Positions 9,691 to 21,100 of a DNA stretch of 64,000 bases are shown here, in pieces. The notes under the pieces are model-generated. The model ran no database searches. It was given only the letters and a program-made list of their open reading frames with translations, and was not told the DNA's origin. The position numbers were made by a program, and so were the translations under genes. The DNA comes from Antedon mediterranea (taxonomy: Eukaryota; Echinodermata; Crinoidea; Comatulida; Antedonidae), in the NCBI RefSeq assembly GCF_964355755.1, contig NC_092677.1:3229001-3293000 (forward strand), given 5' to 3'. Numbering within the stretch: position 1 is the stretch's first letter; every line of letters starts with the position of its first letter.

Positions 9691-11903
9691 GTGATGATGC
9701 CATTTCCAAATCATAAAAAGTGAAATAATATTTTATTTTTACTCAGGTTGGGAAAACAAATACATTTCTTGCTTGAATAAAAAGAATGTTCGGCTTCATT
9801 GAACCTTTCCTTGTTTATTGTAAATTGTGAAAGCGGGTTATAAAGCGTGTGGACGCAACTTGTCATCAAGAACCGTAATAAATTAGGCATGTTTGGTTTT
9901 ACCCTTTTGTTCTAATCCAACTACTTTAAGACAATATCAATCAATATTGATTGTCAATGTAGTTGGATATTTTAAACTTTTGAGTAAAAACGTTAAAAAT
10001 TGTATTTACAGTAGTATGAAGAAAATATTTTATGTTTTGTATAATAAAATACTTTATAATATTGTACAATTTTGACTTTTGACTGCCAATCAATACCATT
10101 ACAAGACAAAAACTAAATAAAAATTTCAACTTTTTCATTAAAACAACGACTACAGATACATAGTAGTAGTAAACAATAGAGTAATAAATTAATCTATTTA
10201 TAACTAATTAATAATAATATAAAGGTTTTACTATACATTCTAGTACACATATTTCAATTGGCAACAACGTGTTTGTCGATAATATTATTTGTTCAAAATG
10301 GAAGCAAATGCAGCAAATTTATTTTACAGCATATGGTATTGCATATGTATAATGTTACTGTAATTATCAACCATACAGCTTCCACAAAAAAGGGATGGGA
10401 AGGGGCTTCTGTATGGTACTTGATGTAAATATGAGCGTTCACTGGCTAAATTCAGGGGCCCCAGAACTTAAGGGCCCAGAGCATGCAATGCAACTAACTA
10501 CCCAATGTTGGAAGGCCACTCACTTATGAGTGCTAAACCAGGGGCACCAGAGCATGAGCAGTCCAATGCAACTACCCAGCGTTTGAGGGCCCTTAGGAGT
10601 GCTAAACCAGGGGCACCAGAGCATGAGCAGTCCAATGCAACTACCCAGCGTTTGAGGGCCCTTAGGAGTGCTAAACCAGGGGCACCAGAGCATGAGCAGT
10701 CCAATGCAACTACCCAGCGTTTGAGGGCCCTTAGGAGTGCTAAACCAGGGGCACCAGAGCATGAGCAGTCCAATGCAACTACCCAGCGTTTGAGGGCCCT
10801 TAGGAGTGCTAAACCAGGGGCACCAGAGCATGAGCAGTCCAATGCAACTACCCAGAGTTTGAGGGCCCTTAGGAGTGCTAAACCAGGGGCACCAGAGCAT
10901 GAGCAGTCCAATGCAACTACCCAGCGTTTGAGGGCCCTTAGGAGTGCTAAACCAGGGGCACCAGAGCATGAGCAGTCCAATGCAACTACCCAGCGTTTGA
11001 GGGCCCTTAGGAGTGCTAAACCAGGGGCACCAGAGCATGAGCAGTCCAATGCAACTACCCAGCGTTTGAGGGCCCTTAGGAGTGCTAAACCAGGGGCACC
11101 AGAGCATGAGCAGTCCAATGCAACTACCCAGCGTTTGAGGGCCCTTAGGAGTGCTAAACCAGGGGCACCAGAGCATGAGCAGTCCAATGCAACTACCCAG
11201 CGTTTGAGGGCCCTTAGGAGTGCTAAACCAGGGGCACCAGAGCATGAGCAGTCCAATGCAACTACCCAGCGTTTGAGGGCCCTTAGGAGTGCTAAACCAG
11301 GGGCACCAGAGCATGAGCAGTCCAATGCAACTACCCAGCGTTTGAGGGCCCTTAGGAGTGCTAAACCAGGGGCACCAGAGCATGAGCAGTCCAATGCAAC
11401 TACCCAGCGTTTGAGGGCCCTTAGGAGTGCTAAACCAGGGGCACCAGAGCATGAGCAGTCCAATGCAACTACCCAGCGTTTGAGGGCCCTTAGGAGTGCT
11501 AAACCAGGGGCACCAGAGCATGAGCAGTCCAATGCAACTACCCAGCGTTTGAGGGCCCTTAGGAGTGCTAAACCAGGGACCTTTGCTCCCTGCATTATGC
11601 CACTGTAAATATGTAAATGACATCAAGAAGGCAGTTAATTGTATCGACAATGTACAAAACAGAGATAACGGCTGGTACTGTATTGATTCCTACACAGATA
11701 ATAAGCTAATAATGTGCAACCATGTGTGCTGAAGAATCATTGCCATTATAAACGTGAATAAAATGTTCATTGTTATTTTTTTTAAACACCCACCCAATAT
11801 ATTTATTTTCAAATTATAGAAAAAAAATCGCCTTATATAGATTGCTAGTCTGTTCACTGCTCACACTGCGATTCCTGGATCATAGCCGTGACAATATCCG
11901 ATT
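9691..11903. other. Convergent intergenic region between TSNAXIP1 and GGCT
   Basis: Holds the TSNAXIP1 3' UTR with AATAAA at 9777-9782, AT-rich sequence with no supported gene to about 10430, a GGGGCCCC-containing dispersed-repeat fragment at about 10380-10500, the 69-bp minisatellite, and the minus-strand polyadenylation signal of GGCT (TTTATT on the plus strand at 11802-11807, 97 bp past the stop). Confidence 0.7.
10527..11577. repeat. 69-bp minisatellite, about 15 nearly identical copies
   Basis: The unit contains GAGTGCTAAACCAGGGGCAC, GAGCATGAGCAGTCCAATGC and GTTTGAGGGCCCTTAG. I saw one difference among copies (CAGCGTTTG to CAGAGTTTG near 10855). Because 69 is divisible by 3, three frames on two strands stay open for over 360 codons; the implied 23-residue peptides have no family support and I treat them as artefacts. 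The near-perfect homogeneity points to very recent expansion or continuing homogenisation. It lies between two convergent genes. Confidence 0.92.
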
Positions 11904-14900
11904 TTAAATATTTTGTTCTATTAATTTAAGTACGTCAAGGTATATAGAAGTTGTTTCCTCAGAGCCATTATGCTCAATTGCTTTTAGTTTATCAATATAG
12001 TCCTCACCTAACTCGTTTTGTACGGCACCCCTGACGATCACATCTAAATAATTTGGGTGCGGTGGACATAAAACTACCTCGTTGCTGATGACGTATGTGC
12101 GGCAAGTTAATGTTCCTTCTGTAGTGGATTCTGTGTTTACTTCAATTCCATGGTATCCTCCTTCTTGTCTAAAAAAAATAAAAATATATACCGACTATAA
12201 AGTCAACAATATATACAGGTTTAAACAATAAAAAATGAGAAAAACCAAGAGTGAAAAATAAAGCAAGACTGAATTTAAAAATGATGAAAAAATAAATAAT
12301 GAATAAAAAAATTGAAAGTGAAAAAAACAGCAACAGTGAAAAAAATTAAGACTGAAAAATAAAGCAAGAGTGAATAAATAAAGCAAGAGTGAATAAATAA
12401 AGCAAGAGTGAAATAAAAAGCAAGAGTGAAAAATAAAGCAAGAATGAAAAATAAAGCAAGAGTGAAAAATAAAGCAAGAGTGAAATATTAAGCAAGAGTG
12501 AAATATTAAGCAAGAGTGAAATATTAAGCAAGAGTGAAATATTAAGCAAGAGTGAAATAAAAAGCAAGAGTGAAATAAAAAGCAAAAGTGAATTAAATAG
12601 CAAGAGTGACAAACAATTCTTTTGCTTGATGTGTAGAAATCATATAGACTGCTAGGATTTATAATGTTTATTTAATATAAACAAATAATTTAATTACAGT
12701 ACACTGAAAAGACAACAATATAAAATGAAAATCATGAAAAGATCAATTATCATTTTAGCTCATCTAAAAATAAAAGCAAAATATTCAGTCATCTATCCTA
12801 TCATTTAAAAATTTTGTTTAGCAATATTGCTAATCAAACTGATTTTTAAGTCGAGAAACATAATTTTGTATTGTATTTTTTGCTACACAATTTTCAAAAT
12901 GTGTAGCAATAAGGTTGTTTTGTATAGCTTTTTGCTACGCTACACTGGCGAAAATGTTCCCTGCAGGCACACAGACAATCATGTTGACTAAAAGTTTTTT
13001 TCTGAATTTGAAGAACATGCCAAGAATTGGTAAATATATTCAAGTAGCGAGAGGAAAGCGACATCACAGAGCAATGACCACCACATCAAGTACTTCAATA
13101 CTTGGCACAAACCACAAAAACCATACAACAGACCACAATTCCATAGACCAACTTGCAGTACCTTTCATACAGCATTCGTTTCCACGCAAACTTTTACAAG
13201 ACTATACATTTGCGAGTCTTTTTCCTCGCTTCCTCCCAATCTTTTATCAACATCAACGTTTCCTGATACGCACGTACATTTCCTTGGTAACGGTTATGAT
13301 CGACTTCAGCGAGTGAGTCTAAATAATCTTGTGGCATGCCTTCGTTTCTAGCACCCATAAGAATAACGTCGACATACTGGGGGGAGGGTTTCATGGGAAT
13401 AAACCGCTCTATGTGATAGGTGTAGACCGGTAGGCCTTCGTCATGTGGGGTTATGGCAGTGGTTTCAAAACGTTGATATATGTGAAGATGTACTCCTAGT
13501 TGACTATTCATATAAGGAAATAATGAAATAATTTATTTTAATAAATTCAATTTATTTAAATTAAATTCAATTAATTTATTTTAATTAAATTCAAAGCCAT
13601 GTTGGTATTTCAGCTAGTCAATAAAAAGGTCATTAAAAAATTTATTTGATCTTCTTTCACATTCCGTACTGTTTTTATTTTATTTATATAAATATCTTTT
13701 GTACTTTTTTGATTGTGAGGGGAAAAAATAATAATAAAAAAAAACCGAATAAATGCTCAACATTATAAAAGATCAACAGGGAACAGAATATTAAGCTCTA
13801 GTAAAGGTCTATCTACACTATCAAGCTAGTTTGACAAAAAAATGTGATGTTCACAAATACGTTAGTGATATGCTTAAATATGGTGATGGTGATATGACAT
13901 CATCATGTCTATATATGGGCACATCACATGTTGTTGTCACATAAAGTTTGATGGTGTAGACAGAGCTTAATTGTCCTCCTACACTCTAAAGGTGGACTAT
14001 AGCTTTTCTTCTGCTCAGCCTCTAGTATAGGATATAAACGTCTGAGAGGAGCTTCAGACTATTTAATCGAACACCCTACAGTATTTTACTACTTTTTTTT
14101 TTGTCTTTTATGGGCTCGTCCACTTTTATTTCACTTTGCAGTACAAATTATTTCAATAATATACAAGTTCACTATAAGTATAATAAGTATAAACAGTATT
14201 TTACTACAGTAATCAAAATACTAATCTTACTGGTCTAGTGTTTTAAGGTGGCGTCTGCTAAGTTTCCAAACAACACCCCACACGTGATCACCGGGTGAAT
14301 ACTCTACACTCGCTACGCCACCTTTCCATACAGAACTTTTCCACGATTTTTGTTGACCAAAAACTAATTTATAATCCTAAAAAAACCAAATATTTATTAA
14401 TTTAGTTATGTTGGCTATCTATGATGATTAATATGAGAGTGCAATGACATTCAATAGAGTTTAAGGAGACAATTTTAGGTACTCTTTTCATAGAGGTGTC
14501 TCCTGATTAGAGGTTGGGCGTAGTGTTAAAACCCATAGTGTCCCTTTAACAGGGATGTCTCATAAACAGAAGTATCCCTTTAATATTGTGTCCTCTGAAT
14601 AGGCATGTCCCCTAAATAGGCGTGTCCCCATAATAGGTGCGTCCACTAAATAGAAGTATCCTTTTATTTTTTAATATGGTGTCCTCTGAATAGGCATGTC
14701 CCCTAAATAGAAGTATCCCTTTAATATGGTGTCCTCTGAATAGGTGTCCCATTAATAGGCGTGTCCCTAAATAGGCGTGTCCCTAAATAGGCGTGTCCCC
14801 TAAATAGAAGTATCCCCTTAATGTTGTATCCCCTGAATAGGTGTCCCATTAATATAGGCATGGCCCCTAAATAGGTGTGTCCCCTAAATAGAAGTATCCT

Positions 14901-16175
14901 TTTAATGTAGTGAACCTTGAATAGAGGTGTTCCATATGGAGGTATGTATAGACAAATACTGTAGGCCTACAATATTCTGTCCGTTCATTTGTGGGTGGGA
15001 AATGCAAATATTGTAAACATTCAAAAACTGATAAACAAAACAGTTTCACTGCAATTAGTAAGAATATAATCATTAAGAAGTATTCTTTAAATCAACTCAT
15101 AGGCAGAATATTCAATAAAACAATCAATTGTTTTGTCTAAAATAGCTTCAAATCAATACATGAACAATCAACTTGAGGTCAAACAGGCATTGAGTTCACT
15201 GATGAATATGAACGCCACAAATGAGACGTGTGAAGATGGTTATAATACTGAAATATTTCAGCTATTAAGTTTCAATAAAATATTCTTGTAAACAAATAGT
15301 TAAATGCTGTTGTTTCAAAATGGTTTGAATGTACTGTACATGCATTTTAAAAATAGTCTACTGCAGTTACTGCAGTAACTCTGCTGTTTTTTTAACCTTT
15401 TATTAAATTATTTGACAAGCTTTGTTTTTGTAATCATACACACTGTTGTTGTTTCAAAATGTTTGAATGTACCTGTATTTTTAAACATTATTCTACTGCA
15501 GTTACTGCAGTAACTACATTTTCTTTTTTATATTTTGTTTCTTTAAAATTTTATTCAATTATTTAAGTTTTTTTTATTCAATCATAAACACTGTCTACAC
15601 CATCAAACTTTGTGACAAAAATATGTGCCAATATATGGACATGATGATATATATATCATTACCATATTTGGGCATATCTCTACCATATTTGGGCACATCA
15701 ACATTTTTGTTAAACTATTTTGATAGTATAGACAGAGTTATACTGCCTTCATAAAATTCCAAATTGAAACCAAAACAACAAATCATATTTTCTGCAGTAA
15801 AAAATGTAGTTACTGTGCAGCTGAATTCAGTAAATTCTTACCCCTTCCCACCTGTAATTAAAGGTAAAATGGAGATAAATATTATTTAAAAATTTGGAAT
15901 GAAATTAAACATAATTCATAATGGAAAACAGGATAAAAGTTAATTACCTCTAGTTTTGCAATTGTCAGAAATGTGGCGGAAGGATTTTTGATGAGAAGTC
16001 GTTCTCTTAACAAATTGCTGCCATAACTGAAATACAAGAAGAAACCTCTACGCAAAGGTCGGAATTCCTCTTCATTAAATTGCCGCGATGATGACATTTC
16101 AGATGCTTCGTCACTTTCCGACGGTTTGAGCTCAAACACGGGGCCTTCCGCTACCTCATTCGCATTTGTCGCCAT
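11904..16175 (-). CDS. GGCT: Gamma-glutamylcyclotransferase, isoform A (distal last exon, catalytic Glu present)
   Basis: Minus-strand coding exons: 16175-15948, 14376-14231, 12168-11904, about 212 aa. GGCT converts gamma-glutamyl amino acids to 5-oxoproline plus the free amino acid in the cytosolic gamma-glutamyl/glutathione cycle. Exon 2 has an acidic 40-residue N-terminal extension, then the substrate-binding YFSYGSNLL (residues 49-57) and the NPSATF block. Exon 3 carries GDHVWGVVWKL. The phase-2 junction gives LDQQEGG, in which Glu127 aligns with the catalytic Glu98 of human GGCT. The last exon ends with YLDVIVRGA and DYIDKLKAIEHNG, the family C-terminus. Exon borders match the places where the family sequence is expected to break. 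A non-coding 5' exon lies at about 16758-16900. Confidence 0.88.
12342..12612. repeat. 17-18-bp minisatellite (AAGCAAGAGTGAAATAA) between the two GGCT last exons
   Basis: About 15 units of AAGCAAGAGTGAAA plus 3-4 variable bases; a looser AGTGAAAAA-type region extends down to about 12235. On the transcribed (minus) strand it is a pyrimidine-rich CTCTTGCTT repeat just upstream of the distal last exon. Confidence 0.85.
13194..16175 (-). CDS. GGCT: Gamma-glutamylcyclotransferase, isoform B (proximal last exon, Glu replaced by Leu, CaaX end)
   Basis: Shares exons 16175-15948 and 14376-14231 with isoform A but ends with 13503-13194, giving about 227 aa. The acceptor (pyrimidine-rich run ending ATAG) and phase 2 fit the same upstream donor. 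The exon is clearly homologous to the other last exon (MKPSPQYVDVILMGARNEGM, then YLDSLAEVDHNRY), but the junction reads LDHQLGV, so Leu127 stands where the family's catalytic Glu should be. The C-terminus is EARKKTRKCIVL: a basic patch followed by a CaaX box ending in Leu, the form favoured for geranylgeranylation. By inference this isoform is membrane-anchored and catalytically altered. Mutual exclusion of the two last exons is inferred from genomic structure only. Confidence 0.75.
13803..13969. mobile_element. MITE copy 3 (CTGTCTACACTATCA family)
   Basis: In the intron between GGCT exons 3 and 4B. Ends AAGGTCTATCTACACTATCA and TTTGATGGTGTAGACAGAGC; core contains TGTGATGTTC, ATATGGTGATGGTGATATGA and CATGTCTATATATGGGCACA. 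Confidence 0.85.
14500..14935. repeat. Degenerate 16-33-bp repeats of the (T)AATAGG.GTGTCCC type
   Basis: In GGCT intron 2. Irregular alternation of TAGAAGTATCCCTTTAAT, GTCCTCTGAATAGGCATGTC and CCCTAAATAGGCGTGTC. The words resemble the 24-bp unit at 2198-4727 and fragments at 1190-1250, 7655-7720 and 45655-45712, so these probably come from one old dispersed repeat. Confidence 0.65.
15357..15515. repeat. Two copies of a CTGCAGTTACTGCAGTAAC-bearing dispersed element
   Basis: CTACTGCAGTTACTGCAGTAA occurs at about 15358 and 15493, each followed by a TTTTAATT..CTTT stretch and an 'AATCATA(A/C)ACACTGT' end. The inner 14 bases, GTTACTGCAGTAAC, form a perfect palindrome. Related copies lie at about 42200-42370 (two inverted ends), 48470, 54460 and 56765. 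It is probably a non-autonomous element end. Confidence 0.6.
15590..15739. mobile_element. MITE copy 4 (CTGTCTACACTATCA family), two core units
   Basis: In GGCT intron 2. Ends CACTGTCTACACCATCAAAC and TTTTGATAGTATAGACAGAG. The core carries two adjacent ACCATATTTGGGCA units, one more than the simplest copies. Confidence 0.85.
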
Positions 16176-16757
16176 ACTACCAAAACAAACAATTTTCAAA
16201 ATATGATTATCAATAAATTATATAACCCCAAAATGAAAAACAAATTATAGTAACTTTAAAAGAAAAATATTTGGCCTATTATTATTTATTCTCTAGTGTT
16301 TTAAAAAGATAATTTTTTTTTCTATTTGGTTTTCAAATTTTTTAATATTAATTATTTCAAATAATTTTAGAAAATTGATCTTATTAAGTTCTTAAATTGA
16401 ATTCCTAAAATAGTTCTCCAGGAATACTATCCATAAATGTCCTGGATTTATATTTAAATTAATATTATCAGTTATAATTTGTAATATTTAATATATTAAG
16501 CATTTACGAATATGTAGGCCACTAGGTACAGGTCAGAGTAAACATGTGTTGTGGTGGGCTTCAGTAGGCCTAGTAGAGTAGTCACCCGCTGGATTAGCAA
16601 AAACATTATGCGCCGGGAGGGCTTACCCTGCCTGGCCAGTCAAAGCACTACATATAGGGTGGGTATTATTTTATACTGTTACTTCTTGTTGTTTTGAATT
16701 AATATTCTTTAATACATTTAATATAACAGCTAAACTACTTTAGTAACTAAAACTTAC

Positions 16758-16900
16758 CTGTACAGTTTTACGTGACCACCACCAGCGCAGGTCTTGTCTG
16801 CTCACATACGCTCCTCCTCCTACCGCCTGTCGAATGTAACTTTTTATCGCAGGGGAAAGTACCGTTCTTTGAATATGCAGAGCGCCACCAACAATCTTAA
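16758..16900 (-). other. Probable non-coding 5' exon of GGCT (upper limit approximate)
   Basis: The minus strand shows a strong donor (CAG|GTAAGT, exon end at 16758), and the next acceptor (TTTTGGTAG, before 16176) lies directly before the GGCT ATG. If transcription starts near 16850-16900, the leader holds a minimal ATGTGA start-stop upstream reading frame at 16807-16802. The transcription start was not determined. Confidence 0.5.
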
Positions 16901-18110: not shown

Positions 18111-21100
18111 ATGGATTTTGATATTAATGATTTGGAACCAAAAGGTTAGTTCAGTTTTATATTTACTTTTTAGTTAGGCCTAAGCTAAACGTTTAGTACT
18201 GACTGACAGATTATTCTTTTATTTTCAATCTTTCAGGTCCAATTCCTACCGAGACGGAATTAGCTCGACTTCTTTGTGACCGCACGTTCGTCGACTATTT
18301 CAATATATTTCTATCATTACCGGTAATTTGATTGTAGTTAATAAATGTTTGAAATTCGATAGGCCTATCATATCAATATTCATACTGTATTAGGATTGGC
18401 ATGTATAGTCTATCACTAGCCTAGGCCTAGATTCTTTCATTTCACAATTTATTTTCTTTAAGATTTTTGCTCAACGGTTGTTATATCGTTTCTCGGAGCA
18501 TGTATTTGAGCTTGACCCTCCTTTAAAACGAACTCAATACGTAAGTAATATATGTAAAATATAGGCAAGGATAAGGTGCAGTACTGTAAATAAAATTACT
18601 TAAAAAAAAAAAAATATTATTATTATTCGAACTTTATAAATAATGTTTAAGCGTTTAGATCGAGTGAAGTTGATGAGATGGGTGAGAACGCATCGTGCTC
18701 CACTATTCTTCAAGACAGACCTCTATCTACATTACATTCTGTGTAAGCATCTACTAAAGACACATTTATACCAACCAACTCATGCAATTACTACTGAATA
18801 TGGTAAGTAAAAATTAACGTAGTAAGGCCAATTTACACAGTAACCGGAAAAAAACAAAATATAGAATCTATGTTATTTATTATACCATTTAGGCCTACAC
18901 AAAACAGGAAAGATACAAACACTACGATCGGTACAAGCTCTCGGTTTTCCGCTTACGGTCACCGCTCATATGTGTAAATTGGCTTAATCTAACCTTCTCT
19001 TTGAGAGTGGAATTTTGTCATGACAAACTTCCTAACCACTGACAGAAATTGAACCAATGACTGCGGTATTAGTAGTCGAGCATCTTAACGACCAAACCGC
19101 ACAACACACCCTGCCTGTACTAATATATTTTATTTACCTCCATCTTTCTCGATAAACCCATAACTAGGCTTGAAAGACAAGACATTAGACCGAAGGCTTC
19201 TTAGCAAATGCTTAAGCAAAGCATCCGGAATGCGACGCTTTCGGACGTTTTTGGTTGGCACCGCAGGAGAACGAGGCTACGAGTTCTGGATAGATGCCGA
19301 ACGATTTCGAAAAGCGACGACAGATGACAAAGAACTGAGTCGGGAACTGTTTCGTGAAATCTCGGCCAAGTATTACAAAAACGGAGGAGTTATGGAACTG
19401 TGGGACGAATGGAAGCCCTTTTCAGGTAGTATCATCTTTTCATTTTAATTCCATAATCACAACAGTAATCATAATCATAATCACAACAGTCATAATCATA
19501 ATTACAACACGGTAATCATAATCATAATCACAACAGTAATCAGAATCACAACAGTAATCATAATCACAACAGTAATCATAATCATAATCACAACAGTAAT
19601 CATAATTATAATCACAAAAGTAATCATAATTATCACTACCGTATTTGAAATTCATATATGAAACTGATTCATATTATTTCAGAGTTAAAGCGTCGCAAAC
19701 GTGACGTCATGTTAACTGCAGTTTCTGATGCGGCAACAGATTCCAGCATTAATAACAACAATGAAATATTGAACACGTTTACCATCGTCCAGGGATTCAT
19801 CTTAAAATCTCTCCAAAATTACTGGGTTCCACGATTTCTGATCAGATGTAAGGCCACGTGGATTAAAAATAGAGAAGGTAAGTAAGACGTCATCATAGGC
19901 CTACTAGATGTCATAGGTGTTAGTGACAATGATAGGCCTGGCAATTCTCTTTGACACAACCTCGTTAAATATTTTCAATGTTCACCCTTTGTTTCAGTTC
20001 AAAAGGACATAGTGTATCAACCTGATTGTTGCATGGTTCACGTTCGAAATTTGTCTGAACTTACCGACACCGACGAAGGTGCCAACAAACAGGAAATGAT
20101 GTCAGATAACATTAAGGTCGCGCGCAAGACGCATCTCAAGAGCCAGAGTGTCAACAATCTGCTTTCAATGTTCACATCATCCAGTATCAGGCGTTCTGAA
20201 CTGGCAGCCATGTTGAAATTAGAAGATACCGGAGAAACGACAACAGCTAATAAAGACCAGTATGACGAGAATGAATGGAATACGAGTGATGGGTTTCCTC
20301 TACCAACTATCTCTGAGGAAGATATTTCTGAAGAAACAGAACCAACTACACCACCACCACCAGAAGCTGACAACGCGTGTGTTGAACCGGTACTCACACC
20401 AAAAGAAAAACAAGAGCAACAACAAAAAACAGAAATCGTTTCTAAAAAAAGTGAAGTATTTCACGATGACAGTCAAAAAGAATGTAAGTCACAAATGATA
20501 TGCTTCAATAAGCAATGGTTTTGTTCTATTATTAGATCTAGTATTATTTCTGTTACTTAACTGTAATATCCGTCTTTTTTCAGTGAATGCTGTAGAGGTC
20601 GATTTAAAGAAGCAAATAAGCAAAGAAACAGTAACTAATAAAAAACCAGATGAAATACCAACTAACATAGACGAAACTACGCAACAGGTCACTGAATCTG
20701 ATGAAGATAAAAAACAAGACACCAAAGATGACGATGAAGAAAAAAGAATAGACAACGAAAAATTTAACCAGTATCACGAACGGTTTAAAAAGATGGCTCA
20801 GCGCAGACGACAGAGTTTTGCCACACCTGAACTTTTGGCGCGAGATTCCAGTTCATCCAGCATGCGCCGACTGTCATGGTCTTCTTCTGGTGTTGCATCA
20901 TTACGAAGAATTTCCACGGGGTCTTTCACAACAGAAAAACAAGAAGTAATAGTAACAAAGACTCCTGTGCCACCAAAGAAAAAGAAATATAAACCACAGA
21001 AAAGACGACAACAAGCTATGTCAGTCGAATTTCGTCTTGGTGATTTCTCAATGCTAATGCAATCACTCACAAACGAGTCTAGCGCTCCGACGACGACTGC

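Follow-up and report, generated by a model that had tools for sequence, protein, structure and literature searches.

A GGCT gene with two homologous last exons, one retaining the catalytic glutamate and one ending in a predicted CaaX anchor

Layout of the GGCT locus

The window, that is the whole stretch of DNA that was analysed (64,000 nucleotides), corresponds to positions 3229001-3293000 of contig C8 in a 354-Mb animal assembly of 18 contigs, in which a search for COX1 gave no hit. Reading and splicing of its minus strand showed a gene for gamma-glutamylcyclotransferase (GGCT) made of two shared coding exons and two homologous last exons, hereafter proximal and distal (Table 1). Exon 1 starts with an ATG followed by a 44-residue polar N-terminal extension, and continues with FLYFSYGSNL, the substrate-binding loop, through to KLE, up to the donor CTAGAG/GTAATT at 15948. 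The YGSN/L substrate-binding motif is present in this shared exon as FSYGSNLL. Further upstream, the sequence suggests a non-coding first exon ending at 16758, which would be joined to GGTAG/TATGGCG at 16176. Exon 2 encodes DYKLVFG...VWGVVWKLSRRHLKTLD and the CA of a split codon, and is bordered by the acceptor TTTTTTTAG/GAT at 14376 and by the end CTAGACCA/GTAAGA (GACCA/GTAAGA) at 14231.

The proximal last exon starts as AG/TCAACTAGGAGTA at 13503 and the distal one as AG/ACAAGAAGGAGGA at 12168. The split codon CA+N is completed by either of them, and the frame is open to the stop in both. An earlier, sequence-only reading of this DNA had proposed two homologous last exons, both phase-compatible with the donor at 14231, and splicing in silico bore this out by giving two in-frame forms, of 227 amino acids with the proximal exon and of 212 with the distal one. 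Its coordinates were right within one base, the ATG being located at 16175 and not at 16176. The proximal form reads ...LKTLDHQLGVHLHIYQRFE...PSPQYVDVILMGARNEGMPQDYLDSL...EEARKKTRKCIVL, and the distal form ...LKTLDQQEGGYHGIEV...PPHPNYLDVIVRGAVQNELGEDYIDKLKAIE...LKLIEQNI. The locus presents the layout of alternative last exons, with a common donor, two in-frame acceptors and separate candidate poly(A) signals. Two other splicing routes were rejected: a single protein carrying both last exons, through the donor CTT/GTAAAA at the CIVL codons, fits in phase, but with a donor score of only 1.0, and a stronger acceptor at 13613, upstream of the proximal exon, is unusable since TGA would be the second codon.

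Table 1 Features of the GGCT locus and its surroundings, in positions of the window
Feature	Position	Strand	Remarks
Candidate donor of a non-coding first exon	16758	-	strong CAG/GTAAGT; inferred only
Exon 1, coding part	15948..16175	-	read and spliced; single copy in the genome
Exon 2, shared	14231..14376	-	read and spliced; single copy in the genome
Proximal last exon, coding part	13194..13503	-	QLGV...KKTRKCIVL stop; weak acceptor TATATGAATAG/T
AATAAA, candidate poly(A) signal of the proximal exon	12667..12672	-	about 520 bases past the stop
18-bp tandem repeat	12242..12613	-	about 21 copies, sense CACTCTTGCTTTATTTTT; candidate regulatory element
Distal last exon, coding part	11904..12168	-	QEGG...LKLIEQNI stop; strong acceptor TTTTTTTTAG/A
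AATAAA, candidate poly(A) signal of the distal exon	11802..11807	-	
Degenerate tandem repeat in intron 1	14588..14891		GTGTCCCCTAAATAGGC
69-bp minisatellite	10523..11578		15 copies, 99% identity
Exon of a neighbouring gene	19164..19448	+	RGS domain (PF00615, 29.1 bits)

Conservation of the proximal exon and signals for its use

Both spliced forms passed PF13772 (AIG2_2) with 68.9 and 68.3 bits (cut-off 27) and PF06094 with 25.0 and 34.7 bits (cut-off 22.8), and both matched human GGCT at about 1e-41. Each last exon alone also passed the Pfam AIG2_2 model, at 41.8 and 44.8 bits against the cut-off of 27, and only 7 of 3000 dinucleotide shuffles of the proximal exon were free of in-frame stops; the homology of the last exons is not due to chance. 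The common first half exhibited 54% identity to human GGCT, and in the second half the identity was 48% over 69 aligned residues for the distal form and 33% over 79 for the proximal form.

Compared with each other, the proximal and distal last exons are 36% identical over 85 residues, with different codons at 18 of the 26 residues common to both. Identity reached 59% at codon position 2 (29% expected) and 44% at position 1 (26% expected), while the 34% found at position 3 did not differ significantly from the 27% expected. As silent sites are saturated between the two last exons, their duplication is old. This saturation of position 3, together with the conservation of positions 1 and 2 and the absence of stops and frameshifts in either exon, points to both exons having long been under protein-level constraint, and argues for protein-level selection on the proximal exon through most of its history. 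The G+C content of the proximal exon is coding-like (43.5%, versus 27-31% in the flanks), and its codon-position structure is retained.

For the scoring of acceptors, an approximate matrix drawn from general knowledge was used, and scores were expressed as percentiles among all AGs in the window. The proximal acceptor, which is homologous to the distal one in position and phase, obtained a score of 3.0 (67th percentile), compared to 7.9 (99th percentile) for the distal acceptor. A 3' splice site as weak as the proximal one is compatible with an exon under regulation, and also with one that is fading. The 18-bp repeat array lies past the proximal poly(A) signal and ahead of the distal acceptor. 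Its 372 bases are 78% pyrimidine and contain 16 TCTT words, and a pattern search did not find the repeat elsewhere in the genome. Binding of pyrimidine-tract proteins to the array could determine which exon is chosen, but the array could just as well be a neutral minisatellite.

The weakness of the proximal acceptor is also what would be seen in a recently silenced relic, the main rival to regulated use of this exon. The proximal exon would once have served as an alternative last exon, would today be included rarely or not at all, and would owe its intact state only to the recency of its loss. The catalytic residue is gone from it, and in simulated neutral drift its frame was still free of stops in 43% of cases after 0.05 substitutions per site and in about 20% after 0.1, the fraction falling to 0.003 after 0.5. 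Nevertheless, the exon has acquired no stop or frameshift, its coding G+C content and codon-position structure persist, and a complete basic patch and CaaX box stand exactly ahead of the stop, unlike the product of random wear. Taken together, we consider a silenced relic unlikely, and still the most serious of the competing explanations.

Catalytic site, C-terminal tail and copy number

The sequence-only reading had also assigned the catalytic Glu to the distal exon and a Leu in its place to the proximal one, and alignment to human GGCT (LDEQEGV, Glu98) agreed on both counts. The distal exon gives LDQQEGG with the catalytic Glu, and the proximal exon gives LDHQLGV, in which Leu replaces Glu98 (E98L in human numbering) in every in-frame splice. 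The distal isoform thus possesses the catalytic Glu and the proximal isoform is devoid of it. Human GGCT relies on Glu98 as acid/base, and mutation of this residue leaves it inactive (PMC7022552); E98A served as the enzyme-activity mutant of GGCT in a 2026 study (PMC13039682). Judged on its residues, the proximal form is a GGCT homologue with no basis for being filed as a GGCT enzyme, and a loss of catalysis is likely. Among PDB entries, 2rbh matches it best, and the 2rbh sequence carries Ala at position 98, which indicates that the fold need not suffer from losing the Glu98 side chain. Right after the catalytic Glu, in the stretch 12078-12168, the distal exon is four residues shorter (QEGG----YHG) than human GGCT and the proximal exon.

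The C-terminus KKTRKCIVL of the proximal form, described earlier as a basic patch plus a CaaX box, was confirmed as such, the full end being ARKKTRKCIVL then stop, with an ideal C-aliphatic-aliphatic-X box behind a hydrophilic linker. When the residues of the proximal exon were shuffled, a CaaX-type end appeared by chance in about 4 of 10,000 shuffles, and the strict form, C[ILV][ILV][LF] preceded by a basic patch, in none of 200,000. In Rho-type proteins, a basic patch of this kind adds membrane affinity. Leu as the X residue of CaaX is preferred by geranylgeranyltransferase I (PMC1175975), and prenyltransferase-type loci were found in the genome as three exon clusters, on C4, C10 and C11. 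The proximal form is predicted to be geranylgeranylated and attached to membranes.

Both isoforms could be made and the proximal one prenylated, while the Leu form would remain active via another residue or on an altered substrate, so that the two forms differ in location and specificity. The proximal exon does retain the pocket-lining Tyr residues 105 and 139 (human numbering), as well as the length of the loop that follows the catalytic position; in the distal exon this loop is shortened. Moreover, ChaC2 tolerates the E-to-Q change and stays active (PMC7022552), which also weighs against the inactivity of the proximal form. However, equivalent Glu changes abolish the activity of GGCT and ChaC1 (PMC7022552), and Leu is incapable of an acid/base role. 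An active Leu form is consequently improbable in our view.

Using each protein in a six-frame search of the whole assembly, exons 1 and 2 were found once and the last exon twice, all at this locus. A whole-assembly family search had the same outcome, with one detected GGCT locus. With exons 1 and 2 occurring once, no other upstream half was detected that either last exon could serve. In addition, the proximal frame is closed upstream at 13532, so that an acceptor is required, and one is present at the homologous position and phase. These observations uphold the proposal of one gene, and no separate gene was detected for the two last exons. The weak proximal acceptor would agree with the proximal exon lying in a gene of its own, under another promoter and behind other first exons, and nothing else was found in favour of this; since the assembly is without any second copy of exon 1 or 2, we regard it as very improbable. 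An assembly or sequencing error at the Leu codon or in the second last exon is least credible of all, as two base changes are needed from Glu to CTA, the window contains no N, and the last exons differ at about two thirds of their residues, which rules out a mis-joined haplotype.

The only other family-like exon in the assembly is located on C2 (10852707-10852892). It reads LDRLEGHPIYYQRTDI / VMGEVFEIDNTMLAALDRLEGHPIYYQRTDI, keeps the catalytic Glu motif LEG, and is probably GGACT, the related enzyme gamma-glutamylamine cyclotransferase. Two weak matches were discarded as not being GGCT. The one on C3 is actually a repeat array near 5833614, similar to the intron-1 repeat, which gave a false weak protein match, and there is no readable GGCT exon at the one on C5. 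A scan of prokaryote contigs, based on human GGCT aligned to the two isoforms, returned no relatives.

Proposed use of the two last exons, known parallels and neighbouring features

We favour, with a probability of about 0.6, the hypothesis of one GGCT gene whose alternative last exons yield either a soluble enzyme or an anchored, probably inactive form. The last exon would have undergone a tandem duplication long ago, and the copies would now be alternatives, each with its own stop and poly(A) signal. Upon skipping of the proximal exon and use of the distal one, the product would be a conventional soluble GGCT that carries the catalytic Glu. Splicing to the proximal exon, with cleavage downstream, would give the same YGSNL half followed by a Leu-substituted homologous second half and the CIVL end. 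The CIVL end would be modified by a cytosolic prenyltransferase, most likely geranylgeranyltransferase I, leading to a probably inactive GGCT on membranes. Expression, prenylation and inactivity of the proximal form are all inferred.

A wider proposal, which we offer tentatively, is that the soluble enzyme and a geranylgeranylated pseudoenzyme, its partner or competitor at the membrane, may link the glutathione cycle to sites on membranes. A role as "sensor or decoy", put forward before, in which gamma-glutamyl ligands would be bound by the membrane form without turnover, is speculative. An anchor subunit that would keep the active isoform at the membrane, should the two form dimers, is as plausible a guess. 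Provided that both forms are produced, the choice of last exon would toggle a metabolic enzyme between an active-soluble and an inactive-anchored state, as an enzyme/pseudoenzyme pair inside one gene, and would point to GGCT having a regulatory function besides the turnover of gamma-glutamyl amino acids. As half of the fold is common to both forms and half is swapped, the gene would constitute a clean natural test.

Across the entire domain, the sequences of the two forms place them in the family and fold of human GGCT (C7orf24; PDB 2pn7, 2rbh, 3cry), and they share the YGSNL loop of the human protein. Its catalytic Glu is matched by the distal form, whereas the proximal form differs by Leu at 98 and by its CaaX end, which is lacking in the human protein sequence. 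The tail KKTRKCIVL resembles KKSRRCVLL, the tail of ubiquitous CDC42. In the CDC42 exon 6 and exon 7 isoforms (PMC6411841), last-exon alternatives lead to differing C-terminal lipid modification, as predicted here, but CDC42 is a GTPase in which only the last 10 residues are swapped and the catalytic domain is common to both isoforms. The alternative oxidase of oyster (Crassostrea) is likewise encoded by one gene with a tandem-duplicated last coding exon and alternative 3' use, and the first exon copy is, as here, more diverged around functional sites; its exons, at about 64% DNA identity, resemble each other much more closely than the GGCT pair does, with no stated loss of a catalytic residue and no lipid anchor gained (PMC5589949). 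In the same way, human capping protein beta uses homologous 3'-terminal exons as alternative 3' ends, without the active-site loss or lipid anchor being described (PMC3228551).

Duplicated last exons and lipid-anchor swaps by last exon are therefore each already known. In the open-licence literature, we found no description of a GGCT combining both last-exon changes, and none of a single exon swap that both eliminates a catalytic residue and introduces a prenylation signal. To our knowledge, there is no known GGCT-fold pseudoenzyme with a lipid anchor.

Apart from the GGCT exons, the locus contains a degenerate tandem repeat in intron 1 and, just downstream of the distal last exon, the 69-bp minisatellite. 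As 69 is a multiple of 3, some 370-390 codons are open there in several frames on both strands, and these open reading frames are no evidence of a gene. The neighbouring gene presents a plus-strand exon with an RGS domain.
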